In this document: in pieces, positions 1 to 18,441 of the stretch
How the letters are laid out: each line of letters begins with the position of its first letter
How positions within the stretch are numbered: position 1 is the stretch's first letter
Virus record (IMG/VR): IMGVR_UViG_3300031977_001017
Span: 1-21,094 of that record
Reading direction: 5' to 3' (one strand)
Length of the DNA stretch: 21,094 nt
Origin: a virus
Notes under the pieces: model-generated
Databases searched by the model: none
Seen by the model: only the letters and a program-made list of their open reading frames with translations
What the model was told of the DNA's origin: nothing
Made by a program: the position numbers and the translations under genes

Positions 1-11
1 GGAGATTATTA

Positions 12-227
12 ATGAGACAAGTTCCAAATCGCAGACCGTGCATCACAACAAACGTAGGCGCAGGGATGGCAGTGACCGTTAGCTTTTGCCCTCAGACAGG
101 GGATGCCATAGAGGTGTTTATGAGCCAGCGTGGCAAGGCCAGCGATAACGAACTGACTGAGGCCATGTATAATCTGGGCGTTACTGCATCCAAGCTGATG
201 CAGGGCGAGTTCGAGGAGGCGGTCTAA
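12..227 (+). CDS. Small protein with TSCPD-like pattern, first gene of the lysis cassette
   Basis: This encodes 71 residues. The start is supported by GGAG at bases 1-4, eight bases ahead of the ATG. An RRPC segment near residue 7 is followed by a V-G-x-G-M-A-V-T-V strand, a G-D-A-I-E-V-F strand and a helix. This resembles the TSCPD domain found at the C-terminus of some ribonucleotide reductases and as free small proteins in phages; the match is by eye and tentative. The stop overlaps the endolysin start as TAATG, so the two are translationally coupled. That places the gene in the lysis transcript although nothing in it suggests a lytic role. It could equally be a generic small phage protein of unknown function. 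The promoter lies left of the window. Confidence 0.72.
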   Translation: MRQVPNRRPCITTNVGAGMAVTVSFCPQTGDAIEVFMSQRGKASDNELTEAMYNLGVTASKLMQGEFEEAV

Positions 228-676
228 TGGATGACAGCGTAGACAAGCTGATAAAGCAACTGAAGAAGCACGAGGGTAGTATCAAGGTGAAGGGCAAGCA
301 CGTTCCCTACCGTGACCACCTCGGCTACAGCACTATTGGCTATGGCAGGTTGATTGACCTTGATATGGGCGGTGGTCTGGCTGACCATGAGGCAGAGTAT
401 CTTCTGATGAATGACTTGGACACCTATATGACAGCCGCCAAGACATACGACTGGTATGCTGGCCTGAACGATGCTCGGAAGGCAGTCATCGTGAATATGC
501 TCTTTAATATGGGGCAGACCAACTTCAACAAATTTCTGAAGATGAAGCAGGCGCTCGATGTGGGTGATTACGCCGAGGCCGCAAAGCAGATGCTCGATAG
601 CAAATGGGCAAAGCAGGTAAAAGGCCGGAGTGAAGAGCTGGCGAAACAGATGGAGACAGGCCAATGGCAACCATAA
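227..676 (+). CDS. Endolysin, T4-type lysozyme (glycoside hydrolase 24)
   Basis: This muramidase should cut the glycan strands of host peptidoglycan during lysis. The 149 residues match the T4 lysozyme family in length. A catalytic triad is visible: E16 in KKHEGS, D30 in YRDHLGYSTIGYG and T36 in the same motif. The D-to-T spacing equals that of T4 D20-T26, and the GYSTIGYG signature is typical. The C-terminal part has the N-M-x-F-N-M-G helix and the AAKQMLDSKWAKQV segment that usually carry the W-x-x-Q-V motif. There is no signal peptide or N-terminal membrane anchor, so export would depend on a holin; the neighbours fit this. The start overlaps the previous stop (TAATG), and its end overlaps the next gene by 13 bases. 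Confidence 0.93.
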   Translation: MDDSVDKLIKQLKKHEGSIKVKGKHVPYRDHLGYSTIGYGRLIDLDMGGGLADHEAEYLLMNDLDTYMTAAKTYDWYAGLNDARKAVIVNMLFNMGQTNFNKFLKMKQALDVGDYAEAAKQMLDSKWAKQVKGRSEELAKQMETGQWQP

Positions 677-864
677 TGGATGAATACAAGGTGATGCCCC
701 GACTAGCATTTTTGGCAATGATAATTATGGCCTACAGGGTGACTGATTGGTATATGTACGACTTGGACATTGCCAGCCGGACAGTCGAAGCCAGTGGCTT
801 CTGTAGCGTTGTTATTGGGGCTTTGACAGGTAGCTTCGCCATCTGGTTAGGAAAAGAGAAATGA
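664..864 (+). CDS. Small two-TM membrane protein, holin-like
   Basis: This encodes 66 residues with two hydrophobic segments, about 12-30 (broken by R25) and 44-63, and a charged GKEK tail. The first start is chosen because GGAG at 652-655 lies eight bases upstream. An alternative in-frame ATG at 676 forms a TAATG overlap with the endolysin stop. The size, the two TM helices and the position between endolysin and a 3TM-type holin suggest a second holin, a pinholin or a holin antagonist. Similar short proteins with a PRL...RVT-W-x-M core next to lysis genes are familiar from marine phages, but no function is established from the sequence. The end overlaps the next gene as ATGA. Confidence 0.78.
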   Translation: MATIMDEYKVMPRLAFLAMIIMAYRVTDWYMYDLDIASRTVEASGFCSVVIGALTGSFAIWLGKEK

Positions 865-1235
865 TACAAGCACTAATACCCGCAGTGAGCGGGATACTAG
901 ATAAATTCATCCCCGATGCGGACACCAAGAACAAGCTGGCGCATGACCTAGCTACAATGGCTGATAAACACGCACAGGAGCTTGCTCTGGCGCAGTTAGA
1001 GGTTCTCAAGGCAGATGCTAAGGGAAACTGGTTTCAGGCAAGCTGGCGGCCTCTAATCGGCTGGATATCCGGCCTCAGTCTCGGCATCAATTATATGGTC
1101 GCGCCCATCGCGGCTGGGTTCGGTGTAACTATCCCGCAGGCAGATATGTCTGTGATGATGCCGCTGATGTTCGGGATGCTCGGTATCGGCGGGATGCGCT
1201 CCTATGACAAGATGAAGAAAACGGACAGCAAATAA
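861..1235 (+). CDS. Holin of the GTA/3TM type
   Basis: This encodes 124 residues. The N-terminal helix (residues 1-20, IPAVSGILDKFIPD) is followed by a charged helical stretch (21-56). Then come GNWFQASWRPLIGW and hydrophobic segments at about 64-90 and 96-113. The W-x-x-S-W-R-P-L-x-G-W motif ahead of the membrane segments is characteristic of the Holin_3TM family, which is common in gene transfer agents and phages of alphaproteobacteria and other proteobacteria. Its expected role is timed permeabilisation of the inner membrane so that the leaderless endolysin can escape. It starts within the preceding stop (ATGA) and ends at a TAATG junction with a miniprotein gene, so the five lysis genes appear to be translated from one message. 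Confidence 0.85.
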   Translation: MIQALIPAVSGILDKFIPDADTKNKLAHDLATMADKHAQELALAQLEVLKADAKGNWFQASWRPLIGWISGLSLGINYMVAPIAAGFGVTIPQADMSVMMPLMFGMLGIGGMRSYDKMKKTDSK

Positions 1236-1333
1236 TGCCGGAATGGATGCAATACTGGCTGGTGGCTATGGTCACGATAAACACCACCGTGAACCTGATA
1301 GTGTTCTTTGTTGGCAGAAAGTTTAAGCCATAA
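1235..1333 (+). CDS. Single-TM miniprotein (32 aa) at the end of the lysis cassette
   Basis: This short frame begins in a TAATG overlap with the holin stop and ends in TAA. It encodes 32 residues: MPEWMQYW, a hydrophobic core LVAMVTINTTVNLIVFFVG, and a basic end RKFKP. The acidic N-terminus, one membrane span and a positive C-terminus look like a small integral membrane protein. The coupling geometry is the same as elsewhere in this cassette, which argues for real translation. A holin modulator or accessory lysis peptide is the obvious guess, but this rests only on position and hydrophobicity. Confidence 0.6.
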   Translation: MPEWMQYWLVAMVTINTTVNLIVFFVGRKFKP

Positions 1334-1336
1334 CAG

Positions 1337-1364
1337 AAAACCCCCCAAGCCGAAGCTCAGGGGG
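1337..1364 (-). terminator. Strong intrinsic terminator with UUCG tetraloop, minus strand
   Basis: Read on the minus strand, CCCCCTGAGC, TTCG and GCTTGGGGGG form a 10-bp stem with two G-U pairs, closed as C(UUCG)G. TTTTCTG follows. Stem arms are 1355-1364 and 1341-1350, with the loop at 1351-1354. On the plus strand the two wobble positions become mismatches and no U-run follows. The signal therefore primarily stops leftward transcription, ending the accessory unit, and probably protects the lysis genes from antisense reading. Confidence 0.88.
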
Positions 1365-1386
1365 CAGTCAGGGAGGAAAAGGAATG

Positions 1387-1563
1387 TCAGCAGAAAGGAG
1401 TGAAACTCTGACAGTCCTCTCTCCTTTGTACAAAAGATAGCGCCGCATTGCAAGAAGCGAAGCACATCACTTGCACCAATTTTCTGCCTTCAAATATTTG
1501 CACCAGCCAATCACCGCTTTTAGGGCGTTGCTTTATTTTGTGCTTGTAACGTGTCAGCCACAT
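1387..1563 (-). CDS. Unrecognised 58-aa protein, last gene of the accessory unit
   Basis: This minus-strand frame starts at ATG 1563-1561 and ends with TGA at 1387-1389. An ideal AGGAGG ribosome site lies five bases ahead of the ATG and overlaps the TAG of the HNH gene, so reinitiation is likely. The protein starts MWLTRYKHKIKQRPKSGDW, then LVQIFEGRKLVQVM, and has four cysteines (34, 38, 51, 58). The N-terminal half is basic and tryptophan-containing; a short beta-rich DNA- or RNA-binding protein is conceivable. I do not recognise a family. The stop lies 23 bases ahead of the terminator hairpin, as expected for the last gene of a transcript. The alternative is non-coding trailer sequence, but the ribosome site and placement argue against that. 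Confidence 0.66.
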   Translation of the reverse strand: MWLTRYKHKIKQRPKSGDWLVQIFEGRKLVQVMCFASCNAALSFVQRREDCQSFTPFC

Positions 1564-1572
1564 TTATGCCTC

Positions 1573-2466
1573 CTATGATAAAGTTCCGCACAGAGATAGC
1601 TTCTCATAAAACTGGTCGCCGTAAAAGTCTTCTGGCATCTGGTTGTGTTTCGATATATTTTCCTTCGCAGGAATTACTCGCAGATTCCACGGCACATGAA
1701 GACCGCATACTGTCTCACCGTTGCGCGGATAATAATGGTCAACGTGATACTTGTCACCAGTCCGGCGCGTCCTCTTCGCCGCTTCTTCATAAAAAGGGGC
1801 GAAGACTTGCGGGTCAATACCCTTCAGCGTTGATTGCCTCAAGTGCTTGCGGCGCAGTTGTGTCTTAAGTTTGCGTTGTTCTCTGTGTTCAATGTCCTCT
1901 GCCCAGCGTTGGCGCAGACGCTGTCGTGCGTGTTCCCGCCTGCCATCCCTTTTTTCTTGAGGAATGTCTAAATAATAACGCTGGTAATGGTCACGGTGAA
2001 AATTGGGATTTTCTTCTATACATTTATCCCGCCACGCCTTAAGACGTTCAGCACCGCCTCGCTTGTGGTAGTATTCGTAATGAGATTGCAAAACTTTCTC
2101 ATGGTTTTCACGCTTCCACCGCTTGTTAAATTCTTTGTGACAGATAACGCAATGACCGTATGGCAAAAACCTCTCTGCTAGATGACCGTTTGGGCATGGC
2201 TTGCCATTAAAATAAAACCGCTGTTTAGCCTTCTCGGCTTCTTGCCTAGTCATTATCTTACGACCCATTTCAGCCTCTAGCTTCTCGACATATTTCTGTC
2301 TTTGCTTCTTCAGCTTCTCTGGCGAGGACTTAAGACGGTTGCACTCTATGCAGACCCCCGAACCGCCAACATAACGAGGTGAGATATGCCCGTTCTTGCA
2401 CGGCTTGCCCGTAAAATACCGAGGCAAGCCTTTGTCTCTGGCTTCAGCCTTAGTAATGATTTCCAT
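1573..2466 (-). CDS. HNH endonuclease with two N-terminal zinc-binding modules
   Basis: This is a probable free-standing phage HNH nuclease of 297 residues. The start at 2466 is chosen over an upstream in-frame ATG because GGGAGATAGACATG supplies a ribosome site. Two similar modules occur: C23-x3-H27-x11-C39-x2-C42 and C91-x3-H95-x10-C106-x2-C109, each opening with an Arg- and aromatic-rich GKPC-x-NGH motif, likely zinc-binding. A long basic helical region (about 110-225) follows. The C-terminal HNH core shows H241-x-D243-H244, the WNL motif (N261), and N270 with H274. Such proteins cut DNA near their own insertion site (homing) or assist packaging; this one is far from the terminase and inside an accessory unit, so homing or mobile-gene behaviour is the likelier reading. 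The ribosome site and first five codons lie inside the preceding gene. Confidence 0.88.
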
Positions 2467-2659
2467 GTCTATCTCCCTTCCTCCGTGTCTCATACTGCCT
2501 GCGCCATACCAGCTTGTCATAGGCTCTCAGCGTTTCCCTGCTGATGGGTATCTTTTTGTCATCAGCATATTGGAACTGCTCGTTGAGCTGTTCGATGAGG
2601 GAATCAATCTCCCCCACCGAAAAGCGTACATCAAATCGTTTCCAGCAGATAGGCTTCAT
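2450..2659 (-). CDS. Unrecognised 69-aa basic protein
   Basis: The start at 2659 forms a TAATG overlap with the stop of the preceding 52-residue gene; an upstream ATG at 2710 is in frame but would run deep into that gene. Visible features are a [17 protein letters not shown] helix, [19 protein letters not shown], and a basic end [18 protein letters not shown]. This is helical and charged, compatible with a small nucleic-acid-binding or regulatory protein. No family is recognised. The tail overlaps the HNH start by 17 bases, which links the expression of the two. Confidence 0.7.
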
Positions 2660-2817
2660 TATGACGCATCCTTTAGCATGGCCTGATAATGGCGCAAGTC
2701 TCTTTTCCACTCGCGCTTGCTTCTTTGCGTCATGGTGCTACCAAACATACCGAGGTAGTTTTTGATGTAATAAATTTTGCTGTTTATTTCGGCGATGGTG
2801 ATGTTTTTCTTCTGCAT
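2659..2817 (-). CDS. Unrecognised 52-aa protein
   Basis: The start at 2817 is set by GGGAGATAGATATG, almost the same leader as that of the HNH gene; the frame extends 12 codons upstream without a convincing ribosome site. The protein (MQKKNITIAEINSKIYYIKN..., ending RDLRHYQAMLKDAS) is predominantly helical with a basic TQRSKREWKRDLRHY stretch, which could bind nucleic acid or form a coiled-coil dimer. Its stop is shared with the next start (TAATG). No family is recognised. Codon-level coupling and the repeated leader make it likely to be expressed. Confidence 0.72.
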   Translation of the reverse strand: MQKKNITIAEINSKIYYIKNYLGMFGSTMTQRSKREWKRDLRHYQAMLKDAS

Positions 2818-2843
2818 ATCTATCTCCCTTCTGGGCGGGGCTG

Positions 2844-3092
2844 TTAAGCCCACACCCTTTCCTCTGCAAATGAACGTGCCTCATTGTAGCGGCGCTGGTG
2901 GTGGTAGCTAGAAACATCCGCCCAAACCAGTGAGCCATCCTTGCGCTTCCGCTCGACCTGAACCTCAACGCATTTGTTAGGAATTTTTACAACGCGATAT
3001 TTGTTTTCGACTCCGATAAATTCGCAGATATCGCAACCTTCTCTACCCCAATATGTTACGTTGCGGTCATCTCTGATAATTGAAACTGTCAT
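2844..3092 (-). CDS. Unrecognised 82-aa protein, first gene of the promoter-driven unit
   Basis: This encodes 82 residues with AAAGGAG six bases ahead of the ATG, and it is the first gene after the 3134-3162 promoter. It has a beta-rich start (MTVSIIRDDRNVTYWGREGC), a C20-x2-C23 pair, a VQVERKRKDGSLVWADVSSY strand-turn-strand segment and an Arg-rich helical end (HHQRRYNEARSFAEERVW). Four aromatic-rich strands and a C-terminal helix suggest a compact alpha/beta fold. I recognise no family. Being promoter-proximal, it should be the most strongly expressed protein of the unit, so it is the best candidate for the effector of whatever the unit does. Confidence 0.78.
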   Translation of the reverse strand: MTVSIIRDDRNVTYWGREGCDICEFIGVENKYRVVKIPNKCVEVQVERKRKDGSLVWADVSSYHHQRRYNEARSFAEERVWA

Positions 3093-3133
3093 TTTTCACT
3101 CCTTTGACTGCGGGGACACCCCCTATATTATTA

Positions 3134-3162
3134 ACTATAGGCTAATGATATATAGATGTCAA
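3134..3162 (-). promoter_or_regulatory. Near-consensus sigma-70 promoter for the accessory unit
   Basis: On the minus strand, TTGACA (3162-3157), a 17-bp AT-rich spacer and TATAGT (3139-3134) form a textbook housekeeping promoter. Transcription should start near 3127-3128, giving a leader of roughly 35 nt with a GGGG/CCCC mini-hairpin (3112-3122) near its 5' end. It lies in the only longer intergenic gap of the leftward genes (3093-3191) and fires toward the 82-, 52-, 69-, 297- and 58-residue genes. Confidence 0.87.
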
Positions 3163-3191
3163 ACCCTAAATGTAAAATAATTGCTAATTTT

Positions 3192-3635
3192 TTATGGGAA
3201 TATTCTGGACAGTATAGCCACAGCCACTATCAGGAACACTGACACCCCTGCTGTGATAGCCGTCCATGTGATGATTTCTTCCTGACGTTTGCGGCGTTCT
3301 TCTTCTTCTATCTGCCGCTGTTTTCTGATTTGACCCTCTAGCCGAATCAGGTCGTTCCAAGCCTGCGGGTTGATAGCCAGCATCTCCAGACGGAGCTGTT
3401 CTCTCTGCTGTTTGATGGTACGCATGGCAGACCAGCTCTCCAGAGCTTCCTCTTCCACGCTCTTGCCGAAACGCCTGCTCTTGGCTTTGTTGTGGGCTTT
3501 CTCGATATCATGGCAAGCACCCATCCAGCGGGACAGGTCGCCTGCCATTGATTCGATTTCTCTGCCTGCCGCAAACCCCTTTCTCAGAAGCCCAAAAGCG
3601 GTAGTGGCTAGGGCTATGGTGGCGGGGTCTATCAT
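3192..3635 (-). CDS. Tail-anchored helical membrane protein, unknown function
   Basis: This encodes 147 residues. A mildly hydrophobic, alanine-rich start (MIDPATIALATTAFGLLRKGFAAG) is followed by about 95 residues of charged helix likely to form a coiled coil, including an EEEERRKRQEE run. One strong C-terminal membrane segment spans about 121-143. GAGG five bases upstream supports the start. It is the last gene of the virion operon before the accessory promoter, directly after a 73-residue membrane protein. Proteins of this architecture are common near fibre and lysis genes of marine phages. A lysis or envelope-disruption role (spanin-like) is possible, but an inner-membrane spanin normally has its TM at the N-terminus, so I leave the function open. 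Confidence 0.8.
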   Translation of the reverse strand: MIDPATIALATTAFGLLRKGFAAGREIESMAGDLSRWMGACHDIEKAHNKAKSRRFGKSVEEEALESWSAMRTIKQQREQLRLEMLAINPQAWNDLIRLEGQIRKQRQIEEEERRKRQEEIITWTAITAGVSVFLIVAVAILSRIFP

Positions 3636-3642
3636 AGCGGCC

Positions 3643-3864
3643 TCACTTGGACATGAGCTTGTCTATTTTGTCCTCGATGCGGTGCAGATGCTCCATCATG
3701 CGGTTCATGTCATCCCGCAGTTCCATCTTGGTAGCGTAGTCCTCACGGGTCTTGTTCAGCAGTATCTGTATGCGCTTCTGCTCGGCGTGGCTCTCTTTCA
3801 AGAACCAGCCGCCAGCAATCACTATCAGGCCGATGAGGCTATCTATCAGACTGCCCATCTCCAT
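3643..3864 (-). CDS. Small N-terminal-TM coiled-coil protein (73 aa), possible inner-membrane spanin-type
   Basis: The start at 3864 overlaps the end of the previous gene by codon spacing (TAAGATG) and has GAG seven bases upstream. The protein has a membrane segment at about 5-22 (SLIDSLIGLIVIAGGWFL) and then 50 charged heptad-like residues ending HRIEDKIDKLMSK. This architecture (short N-terminus, one TM, coiled coil) is shared with inner-membrane spanins and with many unassigned phage membrane proteins. No lipoprotein partner was found, so a spanin label would be speculative. An upstream in-frame ATG at 3939 would give 98 residues but lies well inside the previous gene. Confidence 0.76.
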   Translation of the reverse strand: MEMGSLIDSLIGLIVIAGGWFLKESHAEQKRIQILLNKTREDYATKMELRDDMNRMMEHLHRIEDKIDKLMSK

Positions 3865-3865
3865 C

Positions 3866-4417
3866 TTACAGCTCGTCAGGCCAGTCGTTGATAGGTGCGT
3901 TGCCAGTAGGCACGTTATCAGCATCAACAGGCGCATCATGCAGGGCTAGGAAGGCCGCATGGTCAGCCGCACCATCTATAGCCGCTTCGATGGCGTTGGA
4001 TGCAGTGCGTACAGCCGCCCGATAGGTGGTCACATCTGCTGGCACAGTGTAGTCAGCCACCTCTGCCGCCTTTACCACCATCCAGTCTGTCTTTGCTAGT
4101 AAAGTGCCAGCACGTTCCTTTGTGATAGCCTTCCAGACGCTTTTCAGCCCCTTGGTGACAAGCTGGCTTCCGTCAATGTCCAGAATAGGGTTGCCATCAA
4201 TGTCCACCTCATTAACGTCATCGAGAGCTTTTGGGGTGTTAGCATCCCACCAGAAGCGGTTGTCTGGATTTGGCGCGGGGTCGGCCTCAAAGGTAAGTCC
4301 GATTGTGGTCTTATAAGCATCTGACCAGATACCCCAGTTTGCTGGGTGCTGTATGCCATCGTTGTCTGTCCAGCCTCTGCCAAGGCGGATAGTTTTATTT
4401 GCGTATTTCCATGCCAT
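3866..4417 (-). CDS. Tail-fibre assembly / chaperone-type protein
   Basis: This encodes 183 residues immediately downstream of the large fibre gene and starts after an AGGAGATAGATATG ribosome site. The N-terminal half is aromatic and strand-rich (GWTDNDGIQHPANWGIW) with W-x-N-x-P-type loops. The C-terminal half has LLAKTDWMVVKAAE, VPADVTTYRAAVRTASN and AFLALHD, matching the pattern T-D-W ... V-P ... Y-R-x-x-V-R of phage tail-fibre assembly chaperone (APC/DUF4376-type) domains. It probably helps fold or trimerise the upstream fibre; alternatively the N-terminal half may remain as a fibre-tip component. The assignment rests on motif resemblance and on position. Confidence 0.72.
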   Translation of the reverse strand: MAWKYANKTIRLGRGWTDNDGIQHPANWGIWSDAYKTTIGLTFEADPAPNPDNRFWWDANTPKALDDVNEVDIDGNPILDIDGSQLVTKGLKSVWKAITKERAGTLLAKTDWMVVKAAEVADYTVPADVTTYRAAVRTASNAIEAAIDGAADHAAFLALHDAPVDADNVPTGNAPINDWPDEL

Positions 4418-4426
4418 ATCTATCTC

Positions 4427-6886
4427 CTATCTGGCGTTGGCTGATTTAAATGGTGCTTCTGCTACTGCATAAAAGATGTAAACTATACCAGAGTCATTTG
4501 CCGCCCCATGATTCGACCTTAATTTAAACCCGTTTGAAAGAAAGTCTGCCTCAAGATAACCCGATGTTGAATCCTCTTGGAAAGTACCATTTGGAAACAA
4601 ATTTGCATCAACGACATTTACTGGGTTTCTTTTTGAATCAATTATAATCCAACTTGAACCAATAGCGTCAGTTCTTTTCACCATCAAAAAGGCTGGCCTA
4701 AACCCACAATGCACAAAGACCCCGTCTACGTCTCCATCCCCCGTGTAACTGCCTATCTTGCTGTAGCCATCAACCGAATGGAAACAGTAGGCTATTTGTG
4801 CTGTACTAAAATTTCCAGAAGTAAAGACAGAGCCCATAGTAAAGACAGAAGATGTTGGGGCAGTGTCATCCCAAAGGATGTTACTGTCTATTGAGCCACC
4901 AAGTTCATTCAGAAGTATATAATCTGTTTCAGCGTCAGAGGCGATGCCGCTGTGGTACACAAACCAATTAGATGTAGAAACAGTAGTGTTTCTTGCTTTT
5001 ACAATTATCATCTCTGGCGGAGATGACAGCCCATGCCCCACTGTTTTACTGCCAGTTGCCTCTAAATCAAAACTAACAATACTAAACCCTGCTGTTTGAT
5101 TTGCGCTGACTGTGCTGTCAAGGTCTCCATTTGTATTGCTGACGCCAGTGCCGTTAGCCAGCCAGTTCCATGCGACATTTGTAACCCCAGAGCCATTCAA
5201 AATATCTGTGCCAGTTGTTGAATTAAGTGTAAACCCGTCAGCATCAAAGCTGGCTATATTATGATTAGCGGTATAATAACCTTCAGCTTCAGTGGAACTT
5301 GAGTAAAGACCAGCAGACCCCGTTCCTCTAACAGAGTCCTGTAGTAAATGGTGATAAGCTTGATTCCGTGATTTTACCCATATCAAATCGGGCTGAAAAT
5401 TTACACCCGTTATTGAGCGAGGGTAGGTGGCATCGCCTGTCCACAACACAGTATTGAAATACTCGTCTGGCGCAGTGATGGTAGCGGCTGGCAATGATGA
5501 GGTTTTTAAGCAAAGGAAGCCCGAAGGTGGCGCATAGTAGAAGTCACCCACGCCATTAGAATCCGTGTTGCCTTGAGGGGTAGCCACGCCAGCAAAGGAA
5601 CTGTCCTGACCGAAGTTGGCAGTGCTGGTATATCCAGATACATTGCTGAACCCCATTTTATATAGCTTGTCAGCATCTATAGATGTTCCACCAGTTCCCG
5701 CCGCAGGGTCGGCAGAGTTTTCCCAAGTTCCGTTTTTAGCCCAATATGCTTTAGCATTATCAAAATCAAGGGCAATGCTAATAATATCACCTGTTGTATA
5801 AGTAGAAAGTGTGTCTATGCTGGCATTATTATTGTAAAGTTGCCCACTAACAAGCCAACCCCAAGAACCAGCAGTAGACCCAGCGTATGCGGCTGTGCTA
5901 TTTATATCAAAGTTATCATGACCAAATCCAATAAAGCCATTTGTTCCTTGATTGGCATATACTTCGTAATACCATTTGCCAGAAGAATGTTGCTGGGTGG
6001 CAACTGCTGAACGCCAAGCAGAAGCATTGCCTAGTGCGGCTTTTAGATTCCCCTCACTAAATGTTGTTACAGAATTTGAATATAAACTTTGAATTGGATT
6101 TAACGTAGCAAAGTTGCCACCATTATAAGCCCCATCAAGCACGACATCTGTAGCCACTAAATTGCTGACAGTAAAATCGTTGTTGTTGCCGCTAGTATCA
6201 TCTCCAATGGCAGAGCTATCTGAGAAATCTAGAAAGAAGCCGTTTGTCCCAAAGGTTAATCCAGAAACATCTTTAGGCTTCCATAGTGTGTCGGAATATT
6301 CGCCAAAACTGGTAGGGTCTAACTGCTGTCCGTCTATGAAGCAAGCATTAGCAATATAGCCATCATAATAATTCCCTACACTATACGCCCTTGTGCCAAT
6401 AGTGTGCAAAACAGCATCGTTCACAGCCAACGTAGAACCTGACGATAATGTGCTTCTGTTATCAGCAGAAAAAGATGTCACCTCATCACCATTGACATAT
6501 AAGCGCATCCTGTTTGCGGTAGTGGCATCAGTCGTGTCCACCGCCAAAACAACATGATACCAAGCAGAACAGTCTCTGTATAAAGCGTTGGTCGTAAGGT
6601 TGCGGTTGGTGGTGTTCGCGTCTCTCCAAAACACATCCAACTTGTCTGCGCTAAATCTAAACAAAAACCTGTCTGTGGTGGTAGTGCCAGCGGCAAAAAT
6701 GGTTGGATATATTGCGCCTATATTGCCACGCTTTACCCAAGCAGAAAAAGTCCACACATCCTGATTGCCAGCAGATGAGGGAGTAAGGGACAGATATGGG
6801 CTGTCAGCGTCCTCAAAGCGCAGGGATTGGCCTTCCTCTGCGGCGGATACGGGTATATTACCCGCGATATTCAGTAAGCTGGTCAT
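4427..6886 (-). CDS. Large tail fibre / receptor-binding protein with LamG, SPRY and triplicated C-terminal modules
   Basis: This encodes 819 residues. The N-terminal part (about 20-215) reads as a concanavalin-like LamG domain (SLRFEDADSPYLSLTP, WTFSAWVKRG, MRLYVNGDEV). About 280-440 resembles SPRY (SGKWYYEVYA, GFIGFGHDN, ISIALDFDNAKAYWAKNG). From about 497 there are three related modules beginning near 497, 622 and 729, each with a P-x-hydrophobic-VK(S/A/R)-R/T-N/D strand followed by an aromatic-rich strand; this resembles the phage fibre domain DUF7483. LamG and SPRY domains typically bind glycans or proteins, so this is the likely host-recognition protein. AAGG lies upstream of the start. 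Base composition is visibly AT-rich (bases 6061-6120 hold 18 G/C of 60) compared with the capsid gene, consistent with modular exchange. Confidence 0.86.
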   Translation of the reverse strand: MTSLLNIAGNIPVSAAEEGQSLRFEDADSPYLSLTPSSAGNQDVWTFSAWVKRGNIGAIYPTIFAAGTTTTDRFLFRFSADKLDVFWRDANTTNRNLTTNALYRDCSAWYHVVLAVDTTDATTANRMRLYVNGDEVTSFSADNRSTLSSGSTLAVNDAVLHTIGTRAYSVGNYYDGYIANACFIDGQQLDPTSFGEYSDTLWKPKDVSGLTFGTNGFFLDFSDSSAIGDDTSGNNNDFTVSNLVATDVVLDGAYNGGNFATLNPIQSLYSNSVTTFSEGNLKAALGNASAWRSAVATQQHSSGKWYYEVYANQGTNGFIGFGHDNFDINSTAAYAGSTAGSWGWLVSGQLYNNNASIDTLSTYTTGDIISIALDFDNAKAYWAKNGTWENSADPAAGTGGTSIDADKLYKMGFSNVSGYTSTANFGQDSSFAGVATPQGNTDSNGVGDFYYAPPSGFLCLKTSSLPAATITAPDEYFNTVLWTGDATYPRSITGVNFQPDLIWVKSRNQAYHHLLQDSVRGTGSAGLYSSSTEAEGYYTANHNIASFDADGFTLNSTTGTDILNGSGVTNVAWNWLANGTGVSNTNGDLDSTVSANQTAGFSIVSFDLEATGSKTVGHGLSSPPEMIIVKARNTTVSTSNWFVYHSGIASDAETDYILLNELGGSIDSNILWDDTAPTSSVFTMGSVFTSGNFSTAQIAYCFHSVDGYSKIGSYTGDGDVDGVFVHCGFRPAFLMVKRTDAIGSSWIIIDSKRNPVNVVDANLFPNGTFQEDSTSGYLEADFLSNGFKLRSNHGAANDSGIVYIFYAVAEAPFKSANAR

Positions 6887-6895
6887 GCTACAACC

Positions 6896-7534
6896 TTATG
6901 ATACGTTCAGTGAGCGTCCGATTTCGTACAGATTTGTGCCATCGCTGTAGAATACCAGAATATCCTTCGCGGAGGCGGTGGTGGTCAGTGTCGGGGCTGT
7001 GCCGCCTGTAAACTTGAACACGGCGTTCCAAGACATTGTCCGGCTACCAGTGGTATCCTGAATAATCATCAGCAAGTAAACAGCGCCATCCACCAGATTA
7101 GTCGGAGCCGCCATAGTGCGGTTATCTGCAATGGTAACAGATGTCACCTGATTGGCGCTGGCATCCCATGAGATTGTCGCGCCGTCTGTCAGGGTGGTGG
7201 CATCAAAGTTCTGCGTCTTTGTGAACTCCTGAGCCTTCTCAAGCCCAGCAATGGTCACGTCAGCATCTGGCGCAGTCAGGACACGGGTGGTTGCGGTGGT
7301 CACGCTACCAGCGTCAAAGCGAATCTGCTTGGTATCGTCTGCTGGGTCAGAGATAGCGAATGTATCCTGAATGGCAGATGTGCCAGCGTTCATGTCGGCT
7401 AGGTGTGCCATCATCTCACGCAGGGCGTTGTTGATGTCTGACGGCACCATTATATTCTCGCCAAGCGCTATGCTGTCTAAGTCCGTGTTATTGCTGGCGG
7501 TAGCATCATATTCGGATATTTTTGTCTTTGCCAT
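6896..7534 (-). CDS. Tail-fibre or head-fibre-like structural protein
   Basis: This encodes 212 residues behind an AGGAGAATAACATG ribosome site. The start MAKTKISEYDATASNNTDLDS is the common fibre-type N-terminus, followed by a helix (NNALREMMAHLADM) and a beta-rich, threonine-heavy body with repeated GA-x-ISWDAS and TVTIADN strands. The end (DILVFYSDGTNLYEIGRSLNVS) contains the S-D-G-T-N-x-Y-E-I pattern often seen at the ends of phage fibre proteins. It is placed between the internal virion proteins and the large fibre, so it may connect the fibre to the tail or be a separate short fibre. The exact virion location is inferred. Confidence 0.75.
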   Translation of the reverse strand: MAKTKISEYDATASNNTDLDSIALGENIMVPSDINNALREMMAHLADMNAGTSAIQDTFAISDPADDTKQIRFDAGSVTTATTRVLTAPDADVTIAGLEKAQEFTKTQNFDATTLTDGATISWDASANQVTSVTIADNRTMAAPTNLVDGAVYLLMIIQDTTGSRTMSWNAVFKFTGGTAPTLTTTASAKDILVFYSDGTNLYEIGRSLNVS

Positions 7535-7535
7535 G

Positions 7536-9116
7536 TTATTCTCCTAGCAGGGTCGCGCCCTGCTCTGTTATAGCATATTTTAGACCCTGTGGGTTAGTGT
7601 ATATCTCCTGAACGGGAACTGTGCCTGCTTGAGCCTCTGGGAACACTGTGTCGCCCAACAATCCCATAAATTGACTGCCAACATTAGGCGCTTGCGCCGC
7701 AACTGTTGGGGCTAATGAACGCAACAATCTAGCCGGAACTTGCGCCGCACCTCTGCCTAGCTTTGGGTAATCGTATAACGTGGAAGCCGCTATATTGCCC
7801 ACAAGACCCAGCGCTTTTCTTGGGGTGGTAGCTGTCATTATATCGCCCACAGCAAGCCTGCCTGCTGTGCCGCTGTCTGGCACAGTTTGACCCAAAATGC
7901 TTCTTGCTTCTCTGGCTCTGATAACCTCTGGGGATGTCCTCGCCCTGCCCTTAGTTTCTTCTGTTACCAGCGCTCCCGGAGTAAACTCTCCACCTGTACT
8001 TGCCCTTCTGTTAGACAACTTAACAAGCGGCCTCATGTTCCTGTACGCTTTGTTTGCGGCTTGCAAATCAGGAAGGTCTGGGTTTTGTTTGGCGAATGAA
8101 TCTCGCAATTCTGCTTGAATATCCGCCATCACTCTAGCTTGTCTACGTTGCCCAGAGTTTCTGAACGAACGTATCGCGCCGGACATTTCGCTTTCAGATT
8201 CCTTAAACAATTCACCTGTCATAGAGCCGTTTCTTTTATACGAGGTGTAAACATCAGCCAGCTCTTTGCTAAATTCTTCTGCATCTTTAGGGCTAAATCT
8301 ACCATCGTCTACAGCCTTCTGGATGATGGATTTAATCTTACCATCGACAGCGGCAGGGTTAAATTTAGCTTTCGGCACTACAGCCGCATAAGCCTCACCG
8401 ATTGCGTCCTCAGCAAAATCAATCGCTGTCTCGCCAGTAAACCCTTCCGGCACTTTAATCCCTAAAGGCTTTAGCGCCTCGTCTATGGTTTCACGCACAA
8501 ACATCTGCTGAGGTCTGCGCCGTGCTTCCTGTATAGATTCTTGCAAAAATGGGGTGGATATCTTCTGCTCTATAGAGCCAATCTTGCCCCCGTATGCCTG
8601 CCCCATTGTCAGGGGATAGCCTCTGGAGAGCATAGACTTTGCGCCCTCTTGCAGAACAGGCATTATTTTCTGCCCTGCCGCCGCCGTAACTCCGCCCAAA
8701 GGCGCTCCTATAGCCGCGCCAGCCAGACGGCCTCCAGCGCTTTCTCCTGTGCCAGCTCCATAAATTGCCCCCTCAGCCGCACCAGCAATTCCAGCGCGTT
8801 TTACGGCCTCTCTTCCAACAGCCGTGCCAATAGCTCTCGAAGCACCAACTCCGCCAGTGAGCATTGAGCCTAATATTTCAGCGCCATAAGCCGCTATTGG
8901 GGCGGTTTCTCTAAAGTTTTCTATGTCGCCCCTAACTTCCTTGACTATTTCAGAATACGGCTTGTCACCAAAAGCAGACCGGACAGCCGCCTCCATCTCG
9001 TCACTAAAACCAAGCGTTAAGCCCTGCCCAGCGGCTCTCGCAATATCAACATAAATGTCAAATTGAGACTTGCCCGTTGCGGCTTCATATTTTCTGGTTT
9101 TTGGAAGCGTAGCCAT
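7536..9116 (-). CDS. Putative internal virion / DNA-ejection protein with glycine zipper
   Basis: This encodes 526 residues. Residues 77-150 are dense in glycine and alanine with G-x3-G spacing (GAEILGSMLTGGVGASRAIG, GGRLAGAAIGAPLGG), a glycine-zipper stretch able to enter membranes. The rest is helical and charged, with a basic segment around residues 195-215 (ARRRPQQMFVRETIDEAL). The start overlaps the stop of the previous gene (TAATG). Size, glycine zipper and position between the tail hub and fibres resemble P22 gp16/gp20-type or T7-type internal proteins that form a channel during DNA delivery. Sequence alone cannot fix which one; the tail length and the three-gene set support an ejection role. 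Confidence 0.68.
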   Translation of the reverse strand: MATLPKTRKYEAATGKSQFDIYVDIARAAGQGLTLGFSDEMEAAVRSAFGDKPYSEIVKEVRGDIENFRETAPIAAYGAEILGSMLTGGVGASRAIGTAVGREAVKRAGIAGAAEGAIYGAGTGESAGGRLAGAAIGAPLGGVTAAAGQKIMPVLQEGAKSMLSRGYPLTMGQAYGGKIGSIEQKISTPFLQESIQEARRRPQQMFVRETIDEALKPLGIKVPEGFTGETAIDFAEDAIGEAYAAVVPKAKFNPAAVDGKIKSIIQKAVDDGRFSPKDAEEFSKELADVYTSYKRNGSMTGELFKESESEMSGAIRSFRNSGQRRQARVMADIQAELRDSFAKQNPDLPDLQAANKAYRNMRPLVKLSNRRASTGGEFTPGALVTEETKGRARTSPEVIRAREARSILGQTVPDSGTAGRLAVGDIMTATTPRKALGLVGNIAASTLYDYPKLGRGAAQVPARLLRSLAPTVAAQAPNVGSQFMGLLGDTVFPEAQAGTVPVQEIYTNPQGLKYAITEQGATLLGE

Positions 9117-10372
9117 TACATCATTTCCTTAGTCAGAATATCAAATTCACCAGTTATGCCGTTATAGAAAACATCGCCCTCTTTAATCGCACCGCTATCC
9201 ACCAGCTCAGTAAGCTCATCGTCAGTTGTGGCTCTCTTATAAACCTGACCTAGTTTTTCATCAGCAAATTTGCCAAAACCAAAGTCATCTCCGCGCTCTT
9301 TGACATAATCATCAAACAAGTCTAGGCGCTCTCGGTTATAATCCATAACCTGCTTCTGCATTGTCGCAATAACCAAGTTAGCCTCTGGAGAGTTTGACAT
9401 TTTTACAGTTGCGCTTGCAAAGAAGTCCATATCTCTGTCAGATGAAGCACCTGCACCCACAACCCTCATTCTGGGCGTTAAGAACGATGCGATACTGTTT
9501 ATGACCTCTAAATTGCTTAGGTTTTGAAGCTCCTCATCACCAAGAATATTTGCTTCTCTAGCCAACTGCTTTAGGGGTAGCATAGCAGACTGTAATCTGC
9601 CAGTTTCAGTGCCGGAGGCCAGCAGGTCAATCGCCTGCTGTAAGCGAACACCAAGTTCCCTGTCAGTATTTACCTGCTTCATCATATCTTTGCGAGTAGC
9701 CAAAGCCGCCTTGTAAGCCTCTTTCTTTTGCTCATCACCACCCATGAAAACAGTGCTTGGTTTCATCAGCATTTCTTGAACTTTTTTCTTGCCCTCTGGG
9801 GTGGTCGGGTCAATACCAGCAAGCGCCAGCTTTTTCTCAAAGTCTGATTTCTGTGACAACTTTGCCATAGCAATGCGGTCAGCCAAGTCGGCTCTCTTTT
9901 GCTCCTGATACGCCTTCATGCCAGCACTGAACATAGCGCCCAAGCCCTGACCAGTGGTGATAGGCTTATCCTGATAGCCTGACAGTTGCAAGCCAGTTGC
10001 GGCGGCTTCTGACAGCCCAGCAAATGCGGGCGTGCCAACTGCCGGAGTTAGCCTATCCATCAGGCTTGGCGGTGCTTTCGGAGCTTCCGGCTTCTGTGCG
10101 CCCAGACCCATCTTTGCGGCTAGGTCGCGCTGTAGGCTGGTCATGCCCCCGCCTGCTGGCAGGGCTGATATGTCTCTGATACCGCGCAGGCCAATCTCAG
10201 GCATGGGCGGGCGCTTCCGCACTATCGGAGTGCCTCTACGAGCAGTAGGCAGGCCACCTGTTATGGATGCGCTAGGACGAGCGCCTGCTGGTATGCTCCC
10301 ACGCAAGAGCTGGTTAAACAGTGCAGTGCCTGCCGCACCGCCACCACGAAATGTTGGTATGCCATTAGACAT
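9116..10372 (-). CDS. Putative internal virion protein, second of three
   Basis: This encodes 418 residues. It has a glycine-rich basic start (MSNGIPTFRGGGAAGTALFN), a proline/arginine-rich linker (about 40-80) and a helical, Lys/Met-rich centre (KADLADRI...KKEAYKAALATRKDMMKQV). The end is acidic and beta-like, with DSGAIKEGDVFYNGITGEF, a short motif in which a protein product is introduced by G-D-x-F-Y. It shares TAATG junctions with both neighbours, so the three ejection-type proteins are made in linked amounts. No domain is recognised; the virion role comes from genomic position and composition. Confidence 0.66.
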   Translation of the reverse strand: MSNGIPTFRGGGAAGTALFNQLLRGSIPAGARPSASITGGLPTARRGTPIVRKRPPMPEIGLRGIRDISALPAGGGMTSLQRDLAAKMGLGAQKPEAPKAPPSLMDRLTPAVGTPAFAGLSEAAATGLQLSGYQDKPITTGQGLGAMFSAGMKAYQEQKRADLADRIAMAKLSQKSDFEKKLALAGIDPTTPEGKKKVQEMLMKPSTVFMGGDEQKKEAYKAALATRKDMMKQVNTDRELGVRLQQAIDLLASGTETGRLQSAMLPLKQLAREANILGDEELQNLSNLEVINSIASFLTPRMRVVGAGASSDRDMDFFASATVKMSNSPEANLVIATMQKQVMDYNRERLDLFDDYVKERGDDFGFGKFADEKLGQVYKRATTDDELTELVDSGAIKEGDVFYNGITGEFDILTKEMM

Positions 10373-11124
10373 TAAGCAAACCCTCCTAATAAACCGCCAG
10401 CAAGCATATATAATGGATTTTGACTGCCCATCATGCTACCAGCTTGTGCGCCTGCCAGACCGCCGGAGAGGAAGCCCAGAGCAGGGTTACGATACTGAGG
10501 GGTCATAGTTCTGCCGCCCAATGCACCAGAACCGCCCTGAACCATTGTGAGATAATCAGCCAGCTTCTGTGCAGGCCGTGCCTCTTCAAACTGGAAGCGC
10601 TCGATATCTGCCGCCAGTTCTGCCTGTTCCTGAGCCTCTCTAGCCGCACCAACCTGAGCCAGTGTCTGCAAGTCAGCAAAGCCGAACTCTCTCGCCGCTG
10701 GAGCTTGCTGGATAGCCGCTTGCTGTGCCTGATATACCAGAGGCGCTACAGCTTCTGCTACGGCCTTCTGTGCGTAGCCTGAGCCGTATCTGCCAGTGCT
10801 TTGAGCGCCCTGCATGGCCTTCTGAATGGTGGGCTGTAAAGCCTGCTGGAAAAGCGGATTAGTGCCTGTCAGGTTCTGCATTACCGCCTGCTGTACGGCT
10901 GGTATCAGGGGTGAGCCAGCGGCGGCGGCTGAACGGTAGCCGGACAGTGCCATCTGTGTCTCAGGGCTGAAACCAACTACAGTGCTTCCCGGATAATACT
11001 GAGGCCGAGCAGACTGGTACAAGTCCTTTGCCTCTTGCATCCCGTATTCCAGAAATGGCTGTGCAAATGCACTTGGCGCAGTTGTCTGCGTGATAGTTCT
11101 CTGTGAGCCGCCGCCTTTACTCAT
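10372..11124 (-). CDS. Putative internal virion / DNA-transfer protein with hydrophobic glycine-rich C-terminus
   Basis: This encodes 250 residues. The N-terminal motif Q-P-F-L-E-Y-G-x2-E-A, then PQYYPGSTVVGFSPET, is recurrent in structural proteins of short-tailed phages placed between tail hub and fibres. The middle is glutamine/alanine-rich helix (VQQAVMQNL, KAVAEAVAPLVYQAQQAAIQ, then REAQEQAELAADIERFQFEE), probably coiled coil. Residues 213-250 are hydrophobic and glycine-rich (ALGFLSGGLAGAQAGSMMG, LYMLAGGLLGGF), suited to membrane insertion. A role as a small ejection protein comparable to P22 gp7 is plausible (inference from order and composition). Confidence 0.7.
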   Translation of the reverse strand: MSKGGGSQRTITQTTAPSAFAQPFLEYGMQEAKDLYQSARPQYYPGSTVVGFSPETQMALSGYRSAAAAGSPLIPAVQQAVMQNLTGTNPLFQQALQPTIQKAMQGAQSTGRYGSGYAQKAVAEAVAPLVYQAQQAAIQQAPAAREFGFADLQTLAQVGAAREAQEQAELAADIERFQFEEARPAQKLADYLTMVQGGSGALGGRTMTPQYRNPALGFLSGGLAGAQAGSMMGSQNPLYMLAGGLLGGFA

Positions 11125-11125
11125 T

Positions 11126-11521
11126 TTACAAATCCTTTACCAGTACGGTTGCTGTGGGCTTGTATTCTCGTAGCTGTCTTTCCCAGCCCTTTCGCCCGAT
11201 TATTTCCATTGAATCGCAACCAAGCTCTCTAGCCCAATCGCATATTTTCTTCTCAGCCTCTATAAGCTCTTCCATGTCACCGCCAGCTAACCATATCCGG
11301 CAGGTAGCTCTTTGCGGGTAGTCAACTATCTCACATACTATAGCAGATTTTTCCAAAGGAAAAAATGCCGCTTGCTTATTCGTTACAGCCTGCCACACAT
11401 CCTGTAGCGTATGACTATGCCCTGCGTACTCCAGCGCCGCTACTATGTAGTCAGCGCACCTCTCAAATTCATCAGCCGATGATGAGATATGCAAAGTCTG
11501 CATCGTGTCCCTGATTGTCAT
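11126..11521 (-). CDS. GNAT-like phage protein of unknown role
   Basis: With ATG 11521 as start this encodes 131 residues; a TTG at 11527 and an ATG at 11503 (with AGGG five bases upstream) are alternatives. Family features recognised are HTLQDVWQAV, FPLEKSAIVCEIVDYP, CRIWLAGGDMEELIEAEKKI, then WARELGCDSMEIIGRKGWER and TATVLVKDL. This arrangement (beta strand, acidic helix after WLAGGD, and G-C-x-x-hydrophobic strand with GRKGW) matches small GNAT-fold proteins often found among phage tail genes. I see no clear acetyl-CoA pyrophosphate loop (Q/R-x2-G-x-G/A), so enzymatic activity is doubtful and a structural or modifying role is open. Its start overlaps the preceding gene by 50 bases. Confidence 0.72.
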   Translation of the reverse strand: MTIRDTMQTLHISSSADEFERCADYIVAALEYAGHSHTLQDVWQAVTNKQAAFFPLEKSAIVCEIVDYPQRATCRIWLAGGDMEELIEAEKKICDWARELGCDSMEIIGRKGWERQLREYKPTATVLVKDL

Positions 11522-11795
11522 GTCCAATCACCATAGTTCCATTTGTGCTTGTATCTTTTACATACGGATTGTGGTGGTAAGGGCTATGCCCGACACCGCA
11601 CCAAAAGACTAAGCTCTCCACATTATAGCGAGGTTCGCTAATGGTTGTTTCTGTCTGGTTCTTAGGCAGGGTAACATAGCCGACACTGTTTAGCCCACCG
11701 TCTATCGTTCTGTTCAATATTTCAGCTATCTCCCGTGTGGTGGCTGTAACGGGGTTTAGTATTCTGAAATTTGTCTGCCGCTGTGAAATAGTCAT
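11472..11795 (-). CDS. Small beta-rich tail-associated protein
   Basis: This encodes 107 residues. The start QTNFRILNPVTATTREIAEI, a helix with an NRTIDGGLN turn, then V-G-Y-V-T-L strands and SEPRYNVESLVFWCGV form a pattern repeatedly found in small phage structural proteins placed after the tail hub. Its end (KDTSTNGTMVIGHDNQGH, FAYLIIG) resembles the G-x-h-T-I-x-H-x-N...R-F-x-Y-x-I-I-G ending of those proteins. The start overlaps the hub stop (ATGA), and its 3' end is overlapped by the next gene. The biochemical role is unknown; a tail or collar component is the most economical reading. Confidence 0.75.
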   Translation of the reverse strand: MTISQRQTNFRILNPVTATTREIAEILNRTIDGGLNSVGYVTLPKNQTETTISEPRYNVESLVFWCGVGHSPYHHNPYVKDTSTNGTMVIGHDNQGHDADFAYLIIG

Positions 11796-13249
11796 CTGCG
11801 CCCAACCTCTGCGGCCTCTATGTCGAAGCCCTGAGCAAACTCAAAGGACGTATCAAACTCAAACTTGAAACGGTGATACCTGCCATCCGCCCTGAACTCA
11901 GCATAGCCATTGTTGCCAGCAGAAACCGATGATGTGAAAGTCGGGGCGGGGTTGCCAACCAAAGCATTGCGAGTACCCACATAGCAGAAGTTATCAACGC
12001 CCTCATAGTACGGGTAAACACGGGTCACAACTGAGTGTTTGCCTAAGTGTATGTTCATTTCGCCTGTTACAATCTCCGGCACTAAGGATGAGCCAGTGAA
12101 CGAGTAAAGTTTGTCACTAATCGCCGCACCGAAGAAGAACTGACCGCCACGCAGTGAAGGGCTATCAAGCTGGATAGACAGGGCATCAACTGTAGCCGCC
12201 AAGCTGTCCAAATCGTCAACCGTATAGCTGGAGCTAAATAACGGGGCAACAAAGTCAGTGGCTATCCTCGCCAATGACCAGCGGTTCAGGCTGTAGTTGT
12301 AAATCAGCAATGTATCCGGTTGGCCTGTTGCGCTTGCCTGTGATGGGTATGACCAGACAGCAATCTGGTTTAACGGGTCAACGCTGGCAGATACCCTGTT
12401 CTGATGGGCGCTGTTAAAGTCGTTCTCGAAAAACTTGTCTATCTTCTCGTTGCCAATCGGGGTGGCCTTCTGCCCATCAAACAGATGGAAGCCGTTGTCA
12501 GCTAAGAAGAATGTCAGGTGTCCATAGTTACACACAGACCCAGCCAGTCTACAGCCGCGAACACTCTCCACCTTGTCGAACTGAAACACCAGAGGCAGGC
12601 CAGTATAGGTGGCGCGGAAGATAGCTCTCTCGCACAGAATGGTCGCATATTCACCGCCAACTAGGCCAGTAATCTGCCCTGCGTCCGGCAAGTCCTGAAA
12701 GTCTGACTGGTCAACGCCGGATGTCCAGCTAGTGTAATCACCAAACGCTGACCACCTCACCCGCATAGGCTTCCGGCCTGAGCCTTCGTCAATGTTGGCA
12801 GTCCATACGAAGTCCCGCACCACGGCAATGAAATCTGCTTTAGGAGCGCCTGCGACATCCGCCCAAATTGTCGATGCGTTTACATCCCAATATTGCAGTT
12901 CTTCATCAACACCGCCTGCCGCTATGGCTATGTCACCAAACTGCACAAACCGCCAGCGCTCCGCCCCGACAAGATTATATCCGCCGGACTTGCTCTTATC
13001 GTCCAGATTGCTTGTGCCTGTGTTGAAGGTGTATAGCTTGCCAGCGTCACCAGCAAATAAAGTCACATCGCCGTTATTGTCCTTAACAGAAAAAATGCCG
13101 CGAATCCTGTCATCTGCCGCATTGCTGATGGCTACGGTATTTTTCATAGCCCGATAACCACCAGCCGCAGGAATCACGTTGGTGGCTGTAATCAAGCCCG
13201 GGTTCATGTGTTCTGACTGGTCAGGTAGCCATTCTCCAAAAGGTATCAT
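11792..13249 (-). CDS. Tail hub / packaged-DNA stabilisation-type protein (P22 gp10-like)
   Basis: This encodes 485 residues from the ATG at 13249, chosen because it forms ATGA with the previous stop; an upstream frame of 24 codons is rejected. The protein is beta-rich with blade-like repeats, for example RGIFSVKDNNGDVTLFAGDA, KLYTFN, DIAIAAGG, ELQYWDV, then DFVWTANIDEG. It resembles the beta-propeller tail hub proteins of short-tailed phages that close the portal after packaging. The segment G-Q-I-T-G-L-V-G-G-E-Y-A-T-I-L-C-E and FRATYTG is the type of core repeat seen in such proteins. Gene order (adaptor, then this) parallels P22 gp4-gp10. The assignment is by fold impression and order, not by close identity. 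Confidence 0.72.
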   Translation of the reverse strand: MIPFGEWLPDQSEHMNPGLITATNVIPAAGGYRAMKNTVAISNAADDRIRGIFSVKDNNGDVTLFAGDAGKLYTFNTGTSNLDDKSKSGGYNLVGAERWRFVQFGDIAIAAGGVDEELQYWDVNASTIWADVAGAPKADFIAVVRDFVWTANIDEGSGRKPMRVRWSAFGDYTSWTSGVDQSDFQDLPDAGQITGLVGGEYATILCERAIFRATYTGLPLVFQFDKVESVRGCRLAGSVCNYGHLTFFLADNGFHLFDGQKATPIGNEKIDKFFENDFNSAHQNRVSASVDPLNQIAVWSYPSQASATGQPDTLLIYNYSLNRWSLARIATDFVAPLFSSSYTVDDLDSLAATVDALSIQLDSPSLRGGQFFFGAAISDKLYSFTGSSLVPEIVTGEMNIHLGKHSVVTRVYPYYEGVDNFCYVGTRNALVGNPAPTFTSSVSAGNNGYAEFRADGRYHRFKFEFDTSFEFAQGFDIEAAEVGRR

Positions 13250-13875: not shown

Positions 13876-13886
13876 TATCTAGCCCT

Positions 13887-14273: not shown

Positions 14274-14275
14274 AG

Positions 14276-15234: not shown

Positions 15235-15251
15235 AGTACCCCCTGAAAGGT

Positions 15252-15277
15252 GAGAAGGGCAGTCGCCTGCCCCTCTC
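15252..15277 (-). promoter_or_regulatory. Perfect 11-bp hairpin with GNRA loop after the capsid gene
   Basis: On the minus strand, GAGAGGGGCAG, GCGA and CTGCCCTTCTC form an 11-bp stem (one G-U pair) capped by a GNRA tetraloop, 14 bases after the capsid stop codon. It is followed by ACCTTTCAGG with no real U-run, so it is unlikely to be a full terminator. More likely it slows RNA decay, is an RNase III site or partially attenuates transcription below the highly expressed capsid gene. Confidence 0.75.
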
Positions 15278-15291
15278 TACTGTTTCAATGC

Positions 15292-16239: not shown

Positions 16240-16260
16240 TTTTTAAGTTCCTTCTATTAG

Positions 16261-17280: not shown

Positions 17281-17286
17281 AACTAA

Positions 17287-18437: not shown

Positions 18438-18441
18438 CTCT

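Follow-up and report, generated by a model that had tools for sequence, protein, structure and literature searches.

A stop-in-loop linker at a mosaic accessory locus of a phage, and the probable cassette exchange marked by it

Does a cluster of small genes at the tip of a phage late operon behave as one self-contained accessory unit, or is it put together from parts that move separately? The question is raised by the virus record IMGVR_UViG_3300031977_001017, a 21,094-bp stretch of DNA that is called the window here. A preliminary description of the window had placed five minus-strand open reading frames (ORFs) of 82, 52, 69, 297 and 58 amino acids (aa) downstream of a 147-aa gene, and had read them as a self-contained unit with its own promoter and its own UUCG terminator. 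All five ORFs were found as described (Table 1), and the unit is real but mosaic. The main result is a linker element, a short hairpin-forming sequence that holds the stop codon of one gene in its loop and the ribosome site of the next gene behind it, together with the cassette exchange that it marks. The closest named phage to the window is C72C1 (OQ984150), whose portal protein is 88.8% identical to that of the window; the record OQ984150 states no host, and no paper on C72C1 was found.

The linker lies at the junction of the 82-aa and 52-aa genes. It is about 26 bp long or more, with a G+C-rich hairpin, and the junction sequence, GGGCTTAACAGCCCCGCCCAGAAGGGAGATAGATATG, recurs in relatives where one or both of the neighbouring genes are different. 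Its 18-nucleotide (nt) core was found in at least 119 stretches of IMG/VR. The pattern GGCTTAACAGCC-N(2-20)-AAGGGAG, which leaves the outer stem free, was found in 116 stretches, while a control pattern that differs in one base and turns the loop stop into TGA was found in none. Deduplication of the contexts by an 80-100 nt window gave 84 unique ones, and 78 of these were left when they were collapsed at 90% identity. An open frame of at least 40 codons ends at the TAA in 77 of the 84; the TAA folds into a hairpin loop in 81, and an ATG follows AAGGGAG by no more than 16 nt in 83. In a first set of contexts, the frame of the stop codon was the longest upstream open frame in 88 of 96. Outside the searched letters, CCGCC stands on the right in 71 of the 84 contexts and GGCGG on the left in 61, and conservation drops beyond roughly -9 and +17, the Shine-Dalgarno sequence excepted. 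Across the fetched loci, which are enriched in linkers by selection, perfect stems with at least five G-C pairs surround the stop codon at 56 of 11,535 ORF ends, compared with 42 of 34,605 control codons within ORFs and 24 of 22,778 downstream positions.

Loci L112 and L047 have linker variants in which the stem differs and the loop stop is TAG, and a TAG-loop pattern was found in 12 stretches. Two exact linker patterns were not found in the genomes of 84,980 species, and among 50,697 named phage records none matched a linker query along most of its length. Rfam gave nothing at the linker or at the leader described below. A literature search of titles and the starts of abstracts, with subscription journals and preprints left out, found no linker or cassette system of this kind, which does not imply that it is unpublished.

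The genes on the two sides of the linker are extensively reassorted. The 12-nt core occurs in 126 unique contexts, whose 109 upstream and 116 downstream proteins group into 84 families; 18 families are represented on both sides. The 100 complete junctions represent 88 distinct family pairs, and at least two partners were found for 20 of 42 upstream families and 18 of 53 downstream families. The same short sequence stands between differing gene pairs, as a conserved boundary sequence of a mosaic does. Six triads were found, in which genes A and B are joined as A-B in one phage and occur as A-C-B in others.

Cassettes were gained or lost exactly between linkers in two pairwise comparisons. L172 has one extra cassette compared with L298, and the alignments that flank it overlap by 27 bp in L298; L171 has a between-linker stretch that is missing from L245, with an overlap of 42 bp in L245. 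In both of these clean pairs the crossovers fall inside the element. A third locus, L185, matches L298 up to the same linker and matches L172 across both of the L172 linkers. The comparisons of L233 with L171 and of L245 with L156 were broken into several pieces and are not clean, and L167 and L159 gave no match.

Linkers also cross phage lineages. Twenty-two linker-bearing records were examined, many of which are fragments and two of which (G011 and G019) are apparent near-duplicates, and they span three portal types. Two carry a PF04860 portal, six carry a T7-type portal (PF12236), five (G014, G017, G018, G026 and G029) carry a portal homologous to that of the window at 62-73% identity, and nine have no portal assignment; the portals of G014, G026 and G029 match the P22 portal family only under its cut-off. 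The 82-aa cassette of the window (2825-3105) has a counterpart of 84.6% DNA identity over 293 nt in G011, whose portal is of T7 type. There the 82-aa gene is the first in its operon, divergent from a 64-aa ORF and followed by a serine recombinase gene (PF00239). We read the 64-aa ORF as an Arc-type repressor, a name taken from its sequence with no family search. A position at the head of an operon divergent from this putative repressor fits early expression, and the cargo is probably expressed early. From its position only, it may be guessed that the cargo acts on the host or its defences.

At the window locus, the resident genes can be separated from the cargo by comparison with relatives. 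C72C1 has, in order, a holin gene, a 32-aa gene, the terminator and homologs of the 58-aa gene (55 aa) and the 147-aa gene (148 aa). These two homologs are direct neighbours, as they also are in L017, L018 and L020. The terminator and the 58-aa gene, present without cargo in these four, therefore mark where the late operon ends. The terminator stem-loop had been taken as the unit's own; it is present in the window, with 11 pairs (seven of them G-C), a UUCG loop and a T-rich tail, and is the richest in G-C pairs among 23 terminator-like matches there, but it follows a core gene in cargo-free relatives. Likewise, the 58-aa gene is a core gene that closes the late operon in C72C1, and not part of the accessory unit. 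The same hairpin type stands 3' of the 58-aa homolog in C72C1 and its near relatives, while distant relatives such as L047 have other hairpins.

Other relatives hold changing genes between the 147-aa and 58-aa genes. The absence of everything in between from C72C1, L017, L018 and L020 supports the accessory status of the cargo, but one self-contained block it is not, as the 82-aa, 52-aa, 69-aa and HNH genes come and go separately. When synteny is followed from the 147-aa gene to the 58-aa gene, the block is absent as a whole from these four and varies gene by gene in other relatives. The region at the tip of the late operon is a hypervariable accessory locus of cassette type.

The promoter of the preliminary description, TTGACA-17-TATAGT, is present as well, and the leader stays constant while the genes behind it vary. 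At 11/12, its score is the best among 30 promoter-like matches in positions 1-20000 of the window, where shuffles gave a mean of 21.8 matches of any grade. Taken alone the match is within chance, as the window has one site of 11/12 and 20 Markov controls average 0.45; it becomes convincing because the leader is conserved in relatives. All 15 aligned leaders, from the window and 14 others from IMG/VR contigs, keep TTBACA, a 17-nt spacer and TAYAKT. Each of the four leaders that were folded has a small hairpin behind these elements, of a different sequence in each (z from -0.5 to -2.7). Nine different first genes stand behind the leaders of the window and its relatives: the 82-aa gene, genes of 109, 125 and 81 aa, a homolog of the 52-aa gene, a GIY-YIG nuclease gene, a small gene (69-81 aa, MAKIT...) and genes of 163 and 78 aa. 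By this association the putative promoter belongs with the cargo, and its leader is conserved in the window and 14 others. Promoter and cargo are moron-like in their arrangement, because the leader recurs behind the 147-aa gene with nine first genes and C72C1 has only the 58-aa gene. The moron layout that had been proposed thus stands for cargo gained between contiguous genes behind a conserved leader, but not for the terminator, which belongs to the resident core operon.

Not every block-bearing relative has the window-type leader; it is missing from L004, L106/L107, L109 and L111. In L004, L106/L107 and L109 the block opens with the 69-aa gene behind a different TTGACA site, while in L111 a scan of 230 nt behind the 147-aa gene showed neither the leader nor any promoter match. 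Simple late read-through is less likely in L006, where the leader is separated from the 147-aa gene by a 101-aa gene on the opposite strand that has a promoter-like site of its own.

Some smaller observations were made on these leaders. By eye, the 101-aa gene of L006 (4042-4347, minus strand) resembles linker-cassette family 17. In G003 (L153 348-371), a second leader-type promoter precedes a 201-aa gene, with a terminase-like ORF, identified by eye, nearby; this second site points to two or more docking sites in these phages. The -10 region of the leaders (3134-3162 in the window, alignment A5) lies within an inverted repeat whose arms vary (CTATAT/ATATAG, CCTGTAT/ATACAGG, CCTATT/AATAGG). 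Since transcription from this promoter would not include the left arm, the repeat could be either an operator or an RNA structure in read-through transcripts. Covariation of this repeat is not claimed, as the arms pair in some leaders and fail in others in the one alignment frame used.

Linker-mediated homologous exchange of single-gene cassettes among marine phages is the best reading of these results, and we regard it as probable. The chances are about even for the broader proposal that marine phages with unrelated virions share one pool of single-gene cassettes, with the window locus as one docking site, located at the late-operon tip and downstream of an early promoter. Under this proposal, each pooled cassette would bring its own ribosome site and a standard hairpin holding its stop codon, so that exchange between any two phages would leave it in working register. 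The linker would offer some 26-40 bp of homology, and because the register of this homology is fixed, a swap would leave stop codon, ribosome site and start intact. A phage annealing recombinase, of Sak or Erf type in part of these phages, would carry out the swap of a single gene, and a further role of the hairpin is probably to insulate or stabilise the individual cistrons. The annotation of C72C1 includes a Sak-like annealing protein with homologs in G001, G002, G003, G005 and G006; exact linkers are present in three of these, G001, G002 and G005.

Several points weigh against this reading. The Erf family was found in 7 of the 22 linker-bearing records, and so missed in most; RecT was found in none of the 22; and C72C1 Sak, compared with nine of the 22, gave only a weak match of 27% in G010. 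An annealing protein was thus not found in most records, many of them being fragments. Only the products of recombination were seen and not a recombination event itself, and the linker could be kept mainly for a role in RNA, with recombination as a by-product. The linker loci were fetched through the linker motif, so that the counts describe linker sites and not phage genomes at large, and 12 letters of the core were fixed by the search itself. The window has one exact linker and its other junctions use none. With regard to the docking site, nothing was seen in the window that would block late read-through into the accessory block, three of the 15 leaders (L141, L144 and L154) were found by the leader pattern and the rest by protein searches, and transcription of the block is predicted from sequence.

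Three other explanations were weighed. The linker may be a selected RNA element, acting in termination and re-start or in stabilisation of the messenger RNA between cistrons, with the shuffling being ordinary illegitimate mosaicism that looks cleaner; we consider this rather unlikely. In its favour, the hairpin is stable (-18.1 kcal/mol) and nearly always encloses the stop, the variants of L112 and L047 combine another stem with a TAG in the loop, and annealing proteins were found in part of the records only. Structure alone, however, would not need the stem sequence itself to be conserved, as it is in the 71 right arms that read CCGCC, nor does this explanation sit well with the lack of any same-stem TGA version (0 vs 116) or with two clean cassette gains or losses that start and stop inside the linker. 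Integrons use hairpin DNA sites for the exchange of cassettes, and a dedicated site-specific recombinase could act on the linker hairpin in the way that integron integrases act on attC. A candidate would be the serine recombinase whose gene follows the linker in several phages, since a serine-recombinase-like family (family 13) is found downstream of it in four contexts. The resolvase family PF00239 is, however, present in just 3 of the 22 linker-bearing records, two of them near-duplicates, and the attC partner GTTRRRY was found 28-140 nt downstream in 8 of 122 contexts compared with 7.1% in controls, which leaves this explanation very improbable.

The remaining explanation concerns the window locus, where the block could be a plain part of the late operon, with TTGACA-TATAGT an incidental match and the genes being late hypothetical genes plus a homing nuclease. 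The gap between the block and the 147-aa gene is just 99 nt, in cargo-free relatives the late operon ends at the terminator, an 11/12 promoter score alone is within chance, and L111 has neither leader nor promoter match, all of which this explanation would accommodate. It does not account for a leader kept in the window and 14 others at constant 17-nt spacing, or for the opposite-strand gene between operon and leader in L006, and is judged improbable.

The linker and its locus resemble several known systems in part. In the available text of PMC3029335, phage morons are described as one or more genes with their own promoter, lying between genes that are contiguous in relatives. The genes of the window locus likewise sit behind a putative promoter between genes adjacent in relatives; they differ from a moron in being several and interchangeable, in that the terminator is that of the resident operon, and in that one junction is a linker common to many phages. 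Short boundary sequences at mosaic junctions have been described in lambdoid phages. Such conserved sequences are proposed as recombination points in the same available text (PMC3029335). The likeness lies in the short homologies at module borders, while here the boundary is one specific element, which places a stop inside a hairpin loop and keeps the Shine-Dalgarno sequence in register, it works at the scale of single genes, and it is found with three portal types. The SAS/ESAS of cluster K mycobacteriophages are described, in the accessible portions of PMC3203893, as a 13-bp GGGATAGGAGCCC at gene starts within one phage cluster, and roughly half of them have an inverted repeat upstream. They share with the linker the repeated element at gene starts and, in that half, the inverted repeat; a link to an upstream stop codon is not mentioned for them in those portions. 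As an identity for the linker SAS/ESAS were ruled out, since the linker sequence differs from that 13-bp sequence.

Integron cassettes consist of a promoter followed by interchangeable single genes, each trailed by a hairpin-forming attC site. GCTTAAC in the linker resembles the attC motif RYYYAAC, but there is no GTTRRRY partner above background and the linker carries the ribosome site of the next gene; with the partner counts given above, the linker was rejected as an attC site. Phage mosaicism at single-gene resolution is an old question, and a boundary element common to three portal types, with gain and loss of cassettes between its copies, makes an alternative directly testable. The linker is also a sequence tag for accessory genes of marine phages, and thus a natural place to seek anti-defence genes.

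Table 1. Features of the accessory locus and the adjoining late-operon end in the window, in order of reading on the minus strand.
Feature	Position	Strand	Basis
147-aa gene, the final core late gene ahead of the accessory locus	3192..3635	-	Homologs at the same place in C72C1 and IMG/VR relatives
Putative accessory-locus promoter, TTGACA-17-TATAGT	3134..3162	-	Sequence match and conserved leaders
Predicted leader 5' hairpin, GGGG....CCCC, ahead of Shine-Dalgarno	3112..3123	-	Fold -9.5 kcal/mol, z -1.6
82-aa cassette gene, no known family	2844..3092	-	ORF; 84.6% match in G011
Linker: hairpin with TAA of the 82-aa gene in the loop, then Shine-Dalgarno and ATG of the 52-aa gene	2815..2857	-	Fold -18.1 kcal/mol, z -2.8
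52-aa gene, no known family	2659..2817	-	Homolog in L014/L113, 75%
69-aa gene, no known family	2450..2659	-	In many block-bearing relatives
297-aa endonuclease VII-like HNH gene	1573..2466	-	phrog_1035, 3e-19; insertion site approx. 1577-2498
58-aa core gene	1387..1563	-	Present without cargo in C72C1, L017, L018 and L020
Predicted UUCG terminator, shared late-operon end	1340..1365	-	Stem-loop prediction and relatives

The 297-aa gene appears to have a history of its own. Its earlier assignment as an HNH nuclease is supported by the match to the PHROG endonuclease VII family; no usable Pfam match was obtained, and a search of PDB sequences gave two matches only (E 0.86-0.87), both to ribosomal protein L28. 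Its ORF would be 315 aa from an earlier ATG. Among 14 distinct junctions of the 69-aa and 58-aa genes, six are empty (L004, L007, L009, L012, L111 and L112), three hold the window-type HNH gene (the window, represented as L002, with L014 and L109), four hold other nuclease-type genes and one, L028, holds a different protein. The other nuclease-type genes are those of L008 and L110, similar at 48-53% to the C-terminal HNH part of the window protein, although the L110 gene has no Pfam HNH match, and the GIY-YIG genes of L011 and L005, recognised by Pfam in L011 (GIY-YIG and the I-TevI DNA-binding domain) and by a matching start in L005. Where another gene sits inserted behind it, the final codons of the 69-aa gene vary. 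A site that is empty or occupied by varied nuclease-type genes is the pattern of free-standing homing endonucleases, in which different nucleases share one site that is empty in other relatives, and the HNH gene is probably a separate, homing-type insertion for which the six empty junctions supply the uninserted allele. At the same site, L106 (2529-3596) encodes a protein of about 300 aa with DNWSLTG and DGQNRL stretches, similar to one in L047 and with no Pfam match above cut-off.

The four small proteins had been described as having no recognisable family, and this was borne out in Pfam, PHROGs, NCBIfam and PADLOC, where none gave a family above the curated cut-off or with a convincing E-value, and nothing usable was found among known defence or anti-defence families. 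The 52-aa ORF starts at the ATG at 2817, and would be 64 aa long if the GTG at 2853 is taken. Of the profile and structure searches that had been proposed for the four, profile searches covered all four and fold searches covered two, since structure models were made for the 58-aa and 82-aa proteins, while sequence searches alone covered the 52-aa and 69-aa proteins. The predicted fold of the 58-aa protein has three strands and a helix (beta-beta-beta-alpha, pLDDT 78) and that of the 82-aa protein five strands and a helix (pLDDT 77), and neither model had a PDB match at E <= 0.001.

Two further observations concern the flanks of the locus. From the 3' end of the 58-aa gene to the terminator (1325-1470, minus strand), conservation with C72C1 extends to the DNA level, and one DNA match of 82% covers window positions 1000-1446, including the 3' end of the 58-aa gene and the lysis genes. 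The stretch from the 58-aa gene to the terminator folds better than most shuffles (z -2.6, with 5 of 200 shuffles equally good), and possible crossing pairings within 1325-1470, AAAGGAG/CTCCTTT and TGTCAG/CTGACA, were spotted by eye. A conserved RNA or pseudoknot was sought there in Rfam, where all matches were far under the gathering scores. On the other side of the locus, a 98-aa gene (3643-3939, minus strand) matches the PHROG lipoprotein family phrog_462 at 1.5e-6, and is perhaps a spanin-like lysis component near the convergent lysozyme and holin genes.

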